From an uncultured Bacilli bacterium (GTDB lineage: Bacteria > Bacillota_I > Bacilli_A > RF39 > UBA660): a DNA stretch of 41,643 nucleotides. The notes under the pieces were generated by a model. That model made no database searches, was not told where the DNA came from, and was given only the letters and a program-made list of their open reading frames with translations. Both the position numbers and the translations under genes were made by a program. Below are positions 1 through 39,996 of the stretch, in pieces; within the stretch, counting starts at the first letter, position 1, and each line of letters starts with the position of its first letter. The stretch spans positions 1 through 41,643 of the forward strand of contig CALVIZ010000007.1 in NCBI GenBank assembly GCA_944331865.1. The letters are read 5' to 3'.

Positions 1-1134
1 TCCATAATCACTTACATACATTAATCCTATTTTCATACTATCTGTTGTACTACTTGATGAACTTCCTACTTCTACATCATAATATTGTTTTGCTGTGTAT
101 GATGAACTATCATCCATTGGCATTCCCCCTACTTTCCATGTATGTGTTGCTATTTTATTTTGCCATGTACTACTTAGTGTATTGTAATATGTTGTATTTA
201 ATGTATTTTTTATATCTGATGAGCTCCAAGTATTATCGCCTAATTTATTAGTAGTATCCCATGAATAACTTCCATAACTTATTGCTTTAATGAGTTTTAC
301 TTCTGAACCAAATACTCCTATTATTCGGTATAAATTGTCTTCTGGACATGGGTTTTCATCACTTCCAAAACATACATAGTTATTTGGGTCTGCTCCACCA
401 TATCGATAACTATTGTCTTCTGCGCTATTTGCTAGACTACTTGTATGATAATACATACTAGACATTTCTTGACCTGCTTCATTGTAATAATTTTTTATAC
501 ATGTTGCTAGATTTGTTCCATTGCTACATACATCTGCTAAGTATAATTCATTTATTGTTTCTGCGCTTATTGTATATACACTTGAATCTGCTCCACTTGA
601 ATCTTTTACATATACTTTTATTGTATATGTTGTTCCTTTATTTAGTCCACTAAATGTATAGGTATTACTTGTACTACTTGTGTAATTTTCATTATTTATG
701 GAATAGTAATATGTTGCTACATTATTTGTTCCTCCACTTGCTGATACACTTACACTTATTGAAGAAGTTGTTGTACCAGTTACTGTTACACTATTTACTA
801 TAGGATCTATATATTTATCAAAATAGACATAACATTTATCTGATTTGTTTGTTTTTAAAGTTATGGTTTTTAATTCATCATTCCAAATTAATTTGCCACC
901 ATTTTCACAATTACTTAAAACATCATTAAATATATAGCCAGTCTCTGGCCATGTACTAGTTGAAGATTTTTGATAAGACCCATCATCTTGTTCTAACATT
1001 AAAGTTAAAAAACCATTATTATTTACTTTTGTTTCAGTATCTTCTATTTCTTCTTTTGTTTTAGGTACACAAATATAAATTACTACTGATAATATTATTA
1101 GAACACTAAACATTACTACATACTTCTTTTTCAT
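1..1134 (-). CDS. Membrane-anchored surface protein with FN3 domain and CX7C ectodomain (partial, copy 1)
   Basis: The C-terminus runs off the left edge; 378 codons are visible. I read the frame by hand from the ATG at 1134 and found no stop. It begins MKKKYVVMFSVL with one N-terminal membrane segment (about residues 5-22). A short domain with a WPETGYIFND element follows, then CYVYFDKY, then an FN3-like beta domain ending FSGLNKGTTYTIKVYV. The last part is an ectodomain with YRYGGADPNNYVCFGS and a CX7C cysteine pair. It is a paralogue of the gene at 38252-39649, domain for domain, with exact DNA identity over runs of 49 and 62 nt. Family knowledge: such proteins are extracellular and membrane-tethered; the ligand is unknown. 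It is transcribed divergently from the XRE gene at 1246 from a promoter whose spacer is a palindromic operator. An adhesin or antigenic role is inference. Confidence 0.85.
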   Translation of the reverse strand, partial: MKKKYVVMFSVLIILSVVIYICVPKTKEEIEDTETKVNNNGFLTLMLEQDDGSYQKSSTSTWPETGYIFNDVLSNCENGGKLIWNDELKTITLKTNKSDKCYVYFDKYIDPIVNSVTVTGTTTSSISVSVSASGGTNNVATYYYSINNENYTSSTSNTYTFSGLNKGTTYTIKVYVKDSSGADSSVYTISAETINELYLADVCSNGTNLATCIKNYYNEAGQEMSSMYYHTSSLANSAEDNSYRYGGADPNNYVCFGSDENPCPEDNLYRIIGVFGSEVKLIKAISYGSYSWDTTNKLGDNTWSSSDIKNTLNTTYYNTLSSTWQNKIATHTWKVGGMPMDDSSSYTAKQYYDVEVGSSSSSTTDSMKIGLMYVSDYG

Positions 1135-1145
1135 ATTGCTTCTTT

Positions 1146-1225
1146 GTCTTTTATTCAGACTATTATAAATTAATTATATGTCTTTATTAAAGACAAGTCA
1201 AGTATTTGTTGTCTTTAAATGAGAT
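1146..1225. promoter_or_regulatory. Three putative XRE operators, copy 1
   Basis: Three 15-bp elements of the form GTCT-N7-AGAY lie in the divergent region: GTCTTTTATTCAGAC (1146-1160), GTCTTTATTAAAGAC (1180-1194, a perfect inverted repeat, 17 bp when extended to 1179-1195) and GTCTTTAAATGAGAT (1211-1225). Centres are 34 and 31 bp apart, about three helical turns. The middle one fills the promoter spacer of the surface gene. The third overlaps the GATAAT -10-like box of the XRE gene. The first lies just downstream of the expected start of the surface transcript. Binding by the adjacent XRE protein is inferred from position and symmetry. Confidence 0.7.
1173..1201 (-). promoter_or_regulatory. 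Sigma-A promoter of surface gene copy 1
   Basis: On the minus strand the -35 is TTGACT (1201-1196) and the -10 is TATAAT (1178-1173), separated by exactly 17 bp. The spacer is the palindrome TGTCTTTAATAAAGACA, so a bound repressor would cover the promoter. The start codon at 1134 lies about 40 nt downstream of the -10. Confidence 0.8.
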
Positions 1226-1245
1226 AATTTTTTTGGGTGATAATT

Positions 1246-1482
1246 ATGATAGGTAAAATACTAAAAACAATGCGAAAATCTAATAATTTAAGTCAAGAAC
1301 AAATAAGTAAATTAGTTGGTTATGCTAGAAATACAATATCACAATATGAAACAGAAACTATTCAACCTGATTTCAAAACTATAGAAAAAATTGCTAATGA
1401 ATGTGGCTATGAAATAACTTTTTATAATAAAAAATTAAATAAAACTTTAACTACTAAAAATATAGATCGTGAAGAAATATAA
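1246..1482 (+). CDS. XRE-family HTH regulator, copy 1
   Basis: A 78-residue single-domain DNA-binding protein of the Cro/C1 (HTH_3) type. The HTH spans about residues 15-36 (LSQEQISKLVGYARNTISQY), followed by helices with TIEKIANECGY and a short tail ending REEI. The ATG at 1246 is preferred over the in-frame GTG at 1237 because the GGTGAT ribosome site at 1236-1241 would overlap that GTG; the paralogue at 39760 starts equivalently. By hand count about 58 of 78 residues match that paralogue. It probably represses both itself and the divergent surface gene through the three operators between them (inference). A hairpin terminator overlaps its stop codon. Confidence 0.9.
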   Translation: MIGKILKTMRKSNNLSQEQISKLVGYARNTISQYETETIQPDFKTIEKIANECGYEITFYNKKLNKTLTTKNIDREEI

Positions 1483-20270: not shown

Positions 20271-21152
20271 TTAACCTCCTATAAAATAGGGATCAATATA
20301 TGTACCCTGCCCTTTAATTAATTTAATTGTACTTTTTAAATAAAATACCGGTTTAAGGTCATATTCATTGGTAATTTCAGCAGTTAAGATATTTGATGAG
20401 TTATCTAAATAATAATATTTATCTAATAAATCTTCTTCTGTATTTAATTTCGTTATAAACCAAGTATTACTATCTACTTTAAGCCAATTATTTCCTTCAT
20501 TATCACTTGCTCCTAAAAAGTCACTAATATACATTAAACCAACTTCTCTTAATATTGTAGAGCTTTCCATTTCAGCATTGTATATTGCTAATTTATCATT
20601 TAAAGTTATGCTTTCATCTATACCACCAATGTGCCAACTTGCAGGTTTAATTAAATCTATATAATTTTTTATAGTATCAAAATATGTTGTGGTGTCTATC
20701 ATTGATGAATTTAAATAATTTATTAATTTCGTTGAACTATATTCTCCTGTTTCTAAATCTATTGCAAAGTTTTTTATAGGTTCATTTTTAATTAATTTTA
20801 TGTTTCCATCAAATATGCCAATAATTCGATATAAATTATCGCTTGGACATGGATTTGTATCTGATCCAAAACATACATAGTTATTGGGATTTGCTCCAAC
20901 AAACCGGTATGAATAATCATTAAATGAATCTATATAATTTTGATATATTATATTGTTGCTTTCGTCTTTAGCTAAATTTATTAAATAGTAATTAAATTCA
21001 TCACTATAAATATCTTCTTTAATTTGATTATTTATTCTAGATACTAATAAACGATTGTTTATTAAATTGGTAACTATAAATAATAAAAGCATTAAGAATA
21101 CTAGAAAAAAAGAATAAACTAAAGATGTAGATAAAAAACCTTTTTTATTCAT
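20271..21152 (-). CDS. Minor prepilin-like protein carrying the surface-protein ectodomain (no Glu5)
   Basis: 293 residues. Leader MNKKG then FLSTSLVYSFFLVFLMLLLFI: a prepilin-type N-terminus without the Glu at +5, which in type II secretion/T4P systems is typical of the large tip subunit (GspK/PilX-like). From residue 79 to the end it is homologous to the C-terminal ectodomain of the surface proteins at 1-1134 and 38252-39649: YRFVGANPNNYVCFGSD, a CX7C pair, CPSDNLYRIIGIF, IGGI, VGLMYISDF and a terminal LKPVFYLKS...GTYIDPY. Likely a tip subunit that displays this domain on a pilus (inference). Cotranscribed with pilins on both sides. Confidence 0.85.
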   Translation of the reverse strand: MNKKGFLSTSLVYSFFLVFLMLLLFIVTNLINNRLLVSRINNQIKEDIYSDEFNYYLINLAKDESNNIIYQNYIDSFNDYSYRFVGANPNNYVCFGSDTNPCPSDNLYRIIGIFDGNIKLIKNEPIKNFAIDLETGEYSSTKLINYLNSSMIDTTTYFDTIKNYIDLIKPASWHIGGIDESITLNDKLAIYNAEMESSTILREVGLMYISDFLGASDNEGNNWLKVDSNTWFITKLNTEEDLLDKYYYLDNSSNILTAEITNEYDLKPVFYLKSTIKLIKGQGTYIDPYFIGG

Positions 21153-38238: not shown

Positions 38239-38258
38239 TAAGCTTTTCTCCTTAATTT
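38225..38258. terminator. Hairpin between spoIVB and surface gene copy 2
   Basis: AAGGAGAAAAG (38225-38235) and CTTTTCTCCTT (38243-38253), 11-bp stem, 7-nt loop. It overlaps both gene ends. T-tracts are imperfect on both sides. Confidence 0.55.
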
Positions 38259-39649
38259 ATGCGAATTGGGTCACTATTTGTCCCAGATCCACTGACATAA
38301 GTTGTGGAAGATGCTAGATAGAAGCAAGGTCGAATAACTGTTGGAATCGCTATGTTAATACTAGAATTAGATACATACCCTTGATACATAATTAAAAAAG
38401 CACTATTACTGCCACTGCTATCTCTTGATATAGACCACTCATTAATATAACTAGAATAATTAGACTTTAATAATATCCAATTTGAATTTAATGCTAATCT
38501 ATAATCATTTTCGCTACTATTCCATCCTGGATATGTCCAATATGTATTTGTGGCTCCGTAATAATAATCACTTACATACATTAATCCTATTTTCATACTA
38601 TCTGTTGTACTAGCTGAACTACTTCCGACTTCATAGTTATAAGCTGTTTTTGCTCCATTTCCATATCCATTAGCAGAAGTCATTCCTCCAACTTTCCATG
38701 TGTGTGTTGCTATTTTATTTTGCCATGTTGCACTTAAAGAATTGTAATATGTTGTATTAAGCGCTAGCCTTACATCGGAATTACTCCATGTATTATCACC
38801 GCCTATTTTCCAACTTTCGTAACTATAATTAGATGCTTTAATTAGTTTTACTTCACTACCAAATACTCCTATTATTCGATATAAGTTATCTTCTGGACAT
38901 GTTGCTGCATCTGACCCAAAACATACATAATTATTTGGGTCTGCCCCGGCATATCGATATGAGTTATCTTCAGCACTATTTGCTAAACTACTTGTATGAT
39001 AATATATTCCATTTGAACCTTGGCTTGTATATAAACTTTTTATATATTCTGCTAATAATACTGTATTTTCTGTTTCAGCACTTGTTGTATATACACTTGA
39101 ATCTACTCCACTTGTATCTGTTACATATACTTTTATTGTATATGTTGTTCCTTTATTTAGTCCACTAAATGTATAGGTATTAGCTGTACTACTTGTAAAC
39201 TTTCCATTATTTATTGAATAATAATATGTTGTTACATTATTTGTTCCTCCACTGGCACTTACACTTATACTTATTGATGATGTTGAAGTATCTGCTACTG
39301 TTACATTATTTACTACAGGATTTATATATTTATCAAAATAGACATAACATTTATCTGATTTGTTTGATTTTAAAGTTATGGTTTTTAATTCATCATTCCA
39401 AATTAATTCGTCACCATTTTCACATTCACTTAAAACATTATTAAATATATAACCTGTCTTTGGCCATAAACTAGAAGAAGATTTTTGATAAGTTCCATCA
39501 TCTTGTTCTAACATTAAAGTTAAAAAGCCATTTGTATTTACTTTTGTTTCAGTATTTTTTATTTCATCTTTTTCTTTTGATATATAAATATAAATTAATA
39601 CCGATACTATTAATAGAACACTAAATATTACTACATACTTCTTTTTCAT
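38252..39649 (-). CDS. Membrane-anchored surface protein with FN3 domain and CX7C ectodomain (copy 2)
   Basis: 465 residues, complete. N-terminal membrane anchor (about 5-24), a linker, a domain with LWPKTGYIFNNVL and CYVYFDKYIN (about 40-110), an FN3-like domain at about 110-193 (FSGLNKGTTYTIKVYV), then the ectodomain at about 227-465: YRYAGADPNNYVCFGSD, CX7C, CPEDNLYRIIGVF, HTWKVGG, IGLMYVSDYYYGA, VIRPCFYLAS and a terminal SGTNSDPI. Similar domains are seen in many uncultured Bacillota surface proteins (reminiscent of DUF6273-type domains, not verified). The ATG at 39649 is chosen because GGAGAG lies 6 nt upstream. Divergent from the XRE gene at 39760; strongest sigma-A promoter in the window. 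Confidence 0.88.
   Translation of the reverse strand: MKKKYVVIFSVLLIVSVLIYIYISKEKDEIKNTETKVNTNGFLTLMLEQDDGTYQKSSSSLWPKTGYIFNNVLSECENGDELIWNDELKTITLKSNKSDKCYVYFDKYINPVVNNVTVADTSTSSISISVSASGGTNNVTTYYYSINNGKFTSSTANTYTFSGLNKGTTYTIKVYVTDTSGVDSSVYTTSAETENTVLLAEYIKSLYTSQGSNGIYYHTSSLANSAEDNSYRYAGADPNNYVCFGSDAATCPEDNLYRIIGVFGSEVKLIKASNYSYESWKIGGDNTWSNSDVRLALNTTYYNSLSATWQNKIATHTWKVGGMTSANGYGNGAKTAYNYEVGSSSASTTDSMKIGLMYVSDYYYGATNTYWTYPGWNSSENDYRLALNSNWILLKSNYSSYINEWSISRDSSGSNSAFLIMYQGYVSNSSINIAIPTVIRPCFYLASSTTYVSGSGTNSDPIRIN
38564..38612. repeat. 49-nt exact direct repeat of 4-52
   Basis: Identical to positions 4-52 in the same orientation; part of the paralogous surface genes. A second exact 62-nt match is 39121-39182 with 606-667. 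Confidence 0.85.
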
Positions 39650-39661
39650 ACTACTCTCCAT

Positions 39662-39740
39662 ATCTCATATTGTGATATTACAAATTAATTATAGTACTCA
39701 TTACGAGATATGTCAAGTAATTTAGTTCTTAAAATGAGAT
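39662..39740. promoter_or_regulatory. Three putative XRE operators, copy 2
   Basis: Three 15-bp elements: ATCTCATATTGTGAT (39662-39676), TACTCATTACGAGAT (39695-39709) and TTCTTAAAATGAGAT (39726-39740). Half-site consensus is ATCTCAT. Centres are 33 and 31 bp apart, matching copy 1 (34 and 31), but the sequence differs (GTCTTTA there). The middle element lies in the surface promoter spacer and the third overlaps the XRE -10-like GATAAT. Confidence 0.65.
39688..39716 (-). promoter_or_regulatory. Sigma-A promoter of surface gene copy 2 (full consensus)
   Basis: Minus strand: -35 TTGACA (39716-39711), 17-bp spacer containing the operator, -10 TATAAT (39693-39688). Both hexamers and the spacing match the consensus exactly, so the gene should be strongly transcribed unless repressed. 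Confidence 0.85.
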
Positions 39741-39759
39741 AATCAAAGTGGTGAAAATA

Positions 39760-39996
39760 ATGGTAGGTAAAATACTTAAAACTATGCGAAGAAAAAGCAA
39801 TTTAAGCCAAGAACAGATTGGTAAATTAATTGGTTATGCTAAAAATACAATATCACAATATGAAAATGAGACTCGTAATGCTGATTTTGATACAATAGAA
39901 AAAATTGCTAATGAATGTGGATATAAAATCTTATTTTATAATGAAGAAACTAATGATACACTTACAACAACAAATATTAATAGAGAAGAAATATAA
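39760..39996 (+). CDS. XRE-family HTH regulator, copy 2
   Basis: 78 residues, about 74 percent identical by hand count to the protein at 1246-1482. HTH at about 15-36 (LSQEQIGKLIGYAKNTISQY); recognition helix differs by R to K. Differences cluster just after it (NETRNADFDT versus TETIQPDFKT) and in the tail. The ATG at 39760 is preferred to the GTG at 39748; the GGTGA ribosome site lies between them. Ends at a strong hairpin. Likely represses itself and the surface gene (inference). Confidence 0.9.
   Translation: MVGKILKTMRRKSNLSQEQIGKLIGYAKNTISQYENETRNADFDTIEKIANECGYKILFYNEETNDTLTTTNINREEI

Follow-up and report, generated by a model that had tools for sequence, protein, structure and literature searches.

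Divergent regulator–operator cassettes as putative individual switches for FN3/DUF6273 surface proteins in uncultured Bacilli

The immunity region of phage lambda is governed by cI/cro through the operators OR1-OR3, small Cro/CI-type regulators acting on divergent promoters with non-overlapping specificities. In Bacteroides, the SusCD systems each have a dedicated ECF sigma/anti-sigma pair. Mycoplasma surface lipoproteins, for their part, are switched by homopolymers located in promoters (PMC10502178). We searched the literature for diversity-generating retroelements (DGRs) combined with XRE regulators or with promoter phase variation, and for XRE regulators with divergent surface genes; nothing matching was found, in a search that covers subscription journals weakly.

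The window analysed here, 41,643 nucleotides long, is the entire contig C7 of a metagenome-assembled genome (MAG; 1.19 Mb, 57 contigs) of an uncultured Bacilli bacterium, hereafter the host. It harbours two cassettes in which a surface-protein gene faces a small regulator gene. We propose that each cassette of this type probably forms a self-contained and insulated unit for switching the expression of a single member of a large family of FN3/DUF6273 display proteins.

The two cassettes of the window

The layout described in the earlier note, with a minus-strand surface gene opposite a plus-strand gene for a 78-residue XRE, was recovered from the sequence for both cassettes, C7a and C7b. The two regulators are 74% identical, as that note had it, and both belong to HTH_3 in Pfam (51.3 and 50.2 bits, for a curated cut-off of 23). 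Direct reading and a computed scan of the intervals also agree on three 15-bp inverted elements in each, at +34/-31 bp in C7a and +33/-31 bp in C7b relative to the middle element, the very steps reported before. The features are listed below; the putative operators O1 to O3 carry no strand.

1..1134, minus strand: C7a surface protein, running off the contig end and cut before the variable region
1146..1160: C7a operator O1, GTCTTTTATTCAGAC, in the surface-gene leader, +34 bp from the middle element
1173..1178, minus strand: C7a surface -10, TATAAT
1180..1194: C7a operator O2, GTCTTTATTAAAGAC, filling the 17-bp promoter spacer
1196..1201, minus strand: C7a surface -35, TTGACT
1211..1225: C7a operator O3, GTCTTTAAATGAGAT, with mixed half-sites, -31 bp from O2
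1223-1228: presumed -10 of the C7a XRE gene, GATAAT, read from the sequence, overlapped by O3
1246..1482, plus strand: C7a XRE regulator, 78 aa, recognition helix YARNTISQYE
38252..39649, minus strand: C7b surface protein, 465 aa, with an N-terminal membrane helix, a beta domain, FN3 and a DUF6273-like domain
38255..39091, minus strand: C7b C-terminal DUF6273/putative C-type-lectin-like domain, residues 187-465
38327..38440, minus strand: C7b segment homologous to the DGR variable regions of paralogues
39071..39319, minus strand: C7b FN3 domain, residues 111-193
39662..39676: C7b operator O1, ATCTCATATTGTGAT, +33 bp from the middle element
39688..39693, minus strand: C7b surface -10, TATAAT
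39695..39709: C7b operator O2, TACTCATTACGAGAT, inside the promoter spacer
39711..39716, minus strand: C7b surface -35, TTGACA
39726..39740: C7b operator O3, TTCTTAAAATGAGAT, -31 bp from O2
39738-39743: presumed -10 of the C7b XRE gene, GATAAT, read from the sequence, overlapped by O3
39760..39996, plus strand: C7b XRE regulator, 78 aa, recognition helix YAKNTISQYE

In both cassettes, the middle element takes up the 17 bp that separate the -35 and -10 of the surface-gene promoter (TGTCTTTAATAAAGACA in C7a and TATCTCGTAATGAGTAC in C7b on the surface strand). The GATAAT hexamer overlapped by O3 may serve as the XRE gene's -10. Most likely, the XRE occupies the spacer, represses the surface gene and limits its own synthesis via O3, repression being deduced from operator position only. 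The surface promoter would be off when the repressor sits on the spacer operator, the second operator copy (O3), over the regulator's own promoter, would mediate autorepression, and the third (O1), in the surface-gene leader, would be bound by the same repressor.

The earlier note held that the element sequences differ between the copies and that operator specificity has been rewired. This applies to O1 and O2, which are clearly different between the cassettes and have co-diverged with the regulators. It does not apply to O3, which is nearly identical: in C7a, it is made of one half-site of each kind. As O3 is almost common to both cassettes, the rewiring is incomplete, and some cross-talk is therefore possible at that site.

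The repeated 7-mer score of the interval was reached by one of 100 dinucleotide shuffles for C7a and by eight of 100 for C7b, so that the C7b elements, taken alone, are only suggestive. Similarly, a per-interval repeat scan did not rise above chance for roughly half of the host cassettes, because AT-rich intervals of ~110 bp carry little power on their own. A cross-species comparison was used in its place, and the window elements are firm because that comparison agrees with them.

The cassette family in the host and its genus

A genome-wide family of cassettes had been anticipated, and it exists. Searching the host genome with the surface protein yielded 55 matches, and a third XRE of the window family was found on contig C47. 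At least 14 host cassettes were identified (C7a, C7b, C47, C2, C5a, C5b, C8, C1, C11, C40, C18, C10, C26 and C35). This is a minimum, as many contigs break within family genes; contigs C2, C6, C7, C9, C15, C22, C33, C36 and C47 end at such genes. The family members concerned share an N-terminal module, MKKKY... or MKNKK... followed by LTLMLEQDDG or a variant. All host genes with this module and with upstream DNA on their contig lie opposite a small HTH gene, except the pseudogene C9:8102. This pairing does not reflect background, since HTH_3 has only 42 matches in the whole host genome. For host genes that end in DUF6273 with other N-termini (C3, C17, C6:104, C42 and C4), no divergent HTH partner was found. 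The window itself contains, at 20271-21152 on the minus strand, a gene that matches the surface C-terminal domain (34%) without the N-terminal module. At C28:8640-9300, a decayed cassette consists of a surface 3' remnant adjoining an intact-looking HTH gene.

Among the 133 family genes of the genus for which 450 bp or more of upstream sequence is available, 96 have a divergent small regulator, 85 of which are XREs, seven ribbon-helix-helix (RHH) proteins and four other HTH proteins, with a median gap of 118 bp between surface gene and regulator. The XREs belong to diverse subfamilies. As for the RHH candidates, three of the five tested match HicB, Arc or RHH_1 and two have no Pfam match. Of 18 genus genomes searched (the host among them), 17 contain the N-terminal module, which was absent from all 12 genomes examined from other families of the class. 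In total, our tests covered more than 90 cassettes from about 20 genomes, and the claim that each surface protein has its own regulator held over that set. The genomes are MAGs; certain loci were present twice because their genome appears under two names, and such duplicates were removed by sequence only.

Through their HTH domain, the small XREs show similarity to profiles of antitoxins, RmrA and control proteins, as they would if the cassettes were selfish modules resembling toxin-antitoxin or restriction-control systems, with the XRE as antitoxin. We consider this highly improbable. In these cassettes, the XRE is paired with an FN3/lectin-like protein that is anchored by its N-terminus and devoid of defence or toxin matches, and such partner genes also occur as decayed copies (C28 and C9:8102). 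A type II toxin-antitoxin or defence assignment was rejected, as the partner protein P0002 has no Pfam toxin or PADLOC match.

About 36-37 family genes of the genus have no recognised regulator. A poly-T tract lies upstream of 15 of 37 regulator-less genes, versus none of 101 regulated ones. The tracts range from T17 to T39 and are mostly found between a TTGA, before, and a TATAAT-like hexamer, after; L130, L140, L149, L174, L213, L216 and L217 are among the genes concerned. These genes are candidates for slipped-strand phase variation. Because poly-T occupies this promoter slot in sister genes, and because promoter homopolymers switch mycoplasma lipoproteins, we suggest that the slot serves individual on/off control. 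The occupants of the slot also bear on the possibility that the cassettes form one coordinated regulon, in which the XREs would respond to a common signal and operator differences would be due to neutral drift of local autorepressors. A single promoter scaffold is indeed common to the cassettes, and the regulators, most of only 60-80 aa, are undistinguished by any ligand domain. Nevertheless, unrelated folds (XRE and RHH) in the same slot and poly-T promoters are hard to reconcile with a common regulon, which we regard as unlikely.

Covariation and exchange of regulators and operators

The surface promoter comprises TTGACA or TTGACT, 17 bp and TATAAT, and in many cassettes of the genus the spacer coincides with the operator. 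Typical distances are ~44 bp between the -35 and the start of the regulator gene, and ~40 bp between the -10 and the start of the surface gene. We compared the 55 cassettes with a confident promoter across species. Spacer similarity follows regulator similarity (Mantel r 0.516; maximum of 0.12 in 2000 permutations), with spacer identity of 30.8% where regulators are less than 25% identical and 88.8% where they are at least 90% identical. Spacers also show greater symmetry than shuffled sequences (3.45 versus 2.71, sd 0.14). The proposal of co-diverged operators thus extends across species.

The earlier note had named beforehand, as a test that could refute it, a search for elements at the other copies. 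When this was done, the cassette's own operator was found to recur: copies matching it at 10 or more of 15 positions lie at -25/-31 in 30 of 55 cassettes (foreign operators, 3.0%) and at +30..34 in 23 of 55 (foreign operators, 4.4%). These offsets were picked after seeing the first scan, and the recurrence counts represent a control, not a blind test. In about half of the cassettes, no second operator copy exceeds the scan threshold.

In the XRE family of the window, an ARNT helix (YARNTISQYE, YARNTVSQYE or FARNTISQYE) goes with TGTCT-type operators in six of six cassettes, YAKNTISQYE (AKNT) with ATCTC-type operators in two of two, and GRSTLSDYE with a TGTGGA operator in five cassettes. Judging from these small numbers, the change in recognition helix follows the operator type. 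The idea that the helix is nearly silent between the two window copies must therefore be dropped, as ARNT versus AKNT goes with operator type.

Could the correlation between regulators and operators be due to common descent of whole loci that have kept their old operators, with no linked specificity? Near-identical regulators do occur with similar surface genes in sister species (L034/L114 and L046/L133). Nevertheless, regulator and surface similarity are uncorrelated (r 0.04), the spacer-regulator correlation is unchanged when the surface gene is controlled for (partial r 0.516; surface-spacer r -0.001), and the 17-bp flanks follow the regulator much more loosely (r 0.157) than the spacer does. 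In 58 pairs with regulators at least 70% and surface N-termini less than 50% identical, the spacers are 69.7% identical, versus 31.5% for background and 50.9% for the flanks. Identical regulators are even found opposite very different surface genes: L030 and L124 have exactly the same regulator and spacer (100%) with surface proteins 41% identical, and the regulators of L191 and L208 are 100% and their surface genes 35% identical. Likewise, L113 and L139 have regulators that are 100% and 99% identical to that of C7a, with surface N-termini that are 69% and 44% identical to the C7a one, respectively. Common descent thus appears to be quite an improbable explanation. By comparison of these loci, regulator and operator move together between surface genes as modules.

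Within a genome, the regulators are mutually unrelated, with a median identity of 24-26%. Identity of 55% or more is reached by 60 of the 91 surface pairs in the host, and only four of these 60 have regulators that are as alike. The view of the cassettes as duplicated circuits seems appropriate only for the window pair (plus C47) and not for most cassettes, in which paralogous surface genes face mostly unrelated regulators. Using a label permutation that counts orthologues as independent, no within-genome XRE pair reaches 80% identity versus 4.9 expected (seven of 2000 permutations as low), and two reach 70% versus 9.6 expected (five of 2000 as low). The closest pair is C7a/C7b, whose O1 and O2 differ. 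This deficit, a lack of close regulator duplicates, is consistent with selection for insulation. It could also stem in part from assembly collapse of repeats above 90% identity, or simply indicate that no regulator was duplicated recently.

Altogether, we favour a switch in which a divergent small repressor, an XRE or sometimes an RHH protein, would bind a private operator in the 17-bp spacer. Operator and regulator change in concert and are exchanged as a unit among surface genes, and each surface gene could be on or off without regard to the rest. Such independence is suggested because regulator-operator pairs co-move and close duplicates within a genome are nearly absent. From this arrangement, we infer that the regulators repress both the surface gene and themselves, that cross-talk is absent and that individual cells switch. 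Two promoters under one autoregulated repressor are not bistable alone, and an inducing signal or noise must therefore be assumed. Independent display of the surface proteins is the best reading. Stochastic or combinatorial display is plausible, its best indirect support being the poly-T tracts in the same promoter slot of sister genes, and one-at-a-time display is speculation.

Surface proteins, retroelements and known systems

In Pfam searches, the surface protein matches fn3 and DUF6273 just under their curated cut-offs. The C-terminal domain of the C7b protein (280 residues) was modelled with AlphaFold (pLDDT 92.8, pTM 0.91); the good model was obtained with 61 sequences and a poor one with 11. 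Its only strong PDB match in Foldseek is IgAse 9qa6 (E 1.3e-7), the IgA peptidase of Thomasclavelia ramosa, whose N-terminal DUF6273 domain was reported to be C-type-lectin-like (PMC12237041, PMC12402451). A C-type-lectin-like fold is thus indicated indirectly for the C7b domain, through the model and the DUF6273 of IgAse. The Foldseek search with this model gave no direct match to a DGR variable protein. Phage DUF6273 proteins likewise match the surface C-terminal domain. The region around the C-terminus is the most variable part of the 61 homologues, with a mean entropy of 2.34 versus 1.51.

The link of the surface family to DGRs was absent from the earlier account. In the host, DGR components come after the C1 cassette, namely a template repeat, an Avd-like gene and a reverse transcriptase (RT) in two ORFs. 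Between variable and template repeats, A was changed at 16/32 positions and non-A at 3/78 for C1 (p 5e-8), and at 18/32 and 4/78 for C42. In another group of variable regions (C5b, C11, C33 and C6l), 33 of 36 columns containing A vary, versus six of 59 without A; the template for this class was not found in the host assembly, and one relative has a related sequence. In relatives, the counts of changed A versus changed non-A between template and variable repeats are 15/36 versus 0/58, 8/19 versus 0/33, 15/32 versus 2/53, 15/38 versus 2/73, 17/38 versus 0/63 and 11/35 versus 1/59. There, DGRs adjoin family genes, of which several are XRE-controlled (L311, L312, L314 and L315) and one, L316, has a poly-T promoter. 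RT and Avd genes are adjacent in the genus. The adjacent RT matches RVT_1 (67.9 bits), and Avd matches DivGenRetAVD (E 1.7e-10, 41 bits for a cut-off of 80) and bAvd (29 bits for a cut-off of 40). The C1 RT carries the DGR-type motif LPIGNVSSQ and is split around 1708 (C1:1178-2587, L066); this DGR copy may be inactive, or the split may be an assembly error. The biased substitutions reveal, at the sequence level, DGR mutagenesis in paralogues of the window genes, in the host and in relatives. As for C7b, no template repeat for its homologous region was found in its own genome or in 29 other genus genomes, so that the window genes share homology with DGR targets and are not proven to be targets themselves; C7a is cut by the contig end before that region.

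Several other elements were observed at these loci. A small ORF between target and Avd (L316:2875-3255) matches MutS domain I (E 4.8e-5), and similar ORFs are present in L311-L315; the MutS match rests on one copy. This MutS-domain-I-like ORF is a possible DGR accessory protein. In a relative, a group II intron-like RT/maturase directly follows a truncated DGR RT (L315:5446-6741). The host also encodes a second, different RT of 313 aa (C20:8108-9049, L067), around which no DGR parts were noticed.

It is possible, if doubtful, that the whole constitutes an adaptive-receptor-like repertoire, in which a DGR-diversified lectin-like family is combined with orthogonal private repressors and single cells display one or a few members. 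Regulator-plus-operator modules would then be exchanged under selection against shared specificities. If our proposal of individual switches is correct, it adds a further route to gate a multigene surface family member by member, besides slipped-strand and inversion switches, and couples such gating to targeted hypermutation. With dozens of regulator-operator pairs set in an invariant promoter scaffold, the cassettes also form a natural library from which the evolution of HTH specificity in the absence of cross-talk could be learned. They likewise open to direct test the question of whether selection favours orthogonality among paralogous repressors.

Among described systems, lambda-type immunity regions similarly combine a small Cro/CI-type regulator, three operators between divergent promoters and immunity-like, non-overlapping specificities. 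They differ in that the output here is a chromosomal surface gene and the operator steps are ~31-34 bp. The 78-aa XREs of the window consist of the HTH only, lacking a CI-like C-terminal dimerisation/cleavage domain, and no opposing Cro gene or other second regulator was found in the window intervals. As in Bacteroides SusCD, many paralogous surface systems each have their own regulator, but SusCD control is positive and exerted by signal-sensing sigma factors, unlike the putative repressors with promoter-spacer operators described here. The mycoplasma lipoproteins (M. hyorhinis vlp, M. mycoides vmm; PMC10502178) are also multigene surface families switched singly, by a homopolymer or repeat in the promoter region that recalls the poly-T genes of sister species; in contrast, the window genes and most family members use a protein regulator and a private operator. 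Finally, like known DGR targets (Treponema TvpA, Legionella Ldt; Roux et al. 2021, PMC8144416), the family is surface-displayed with a C-terminal lectin-like domain, in several members an adjacent RT/Avd/TR locus rewrites that domain at template adenines, and there are several targets per genome. Unlike those targets, the family genes are individually placed under a putative private divergent repressor or a poly-T promoter.
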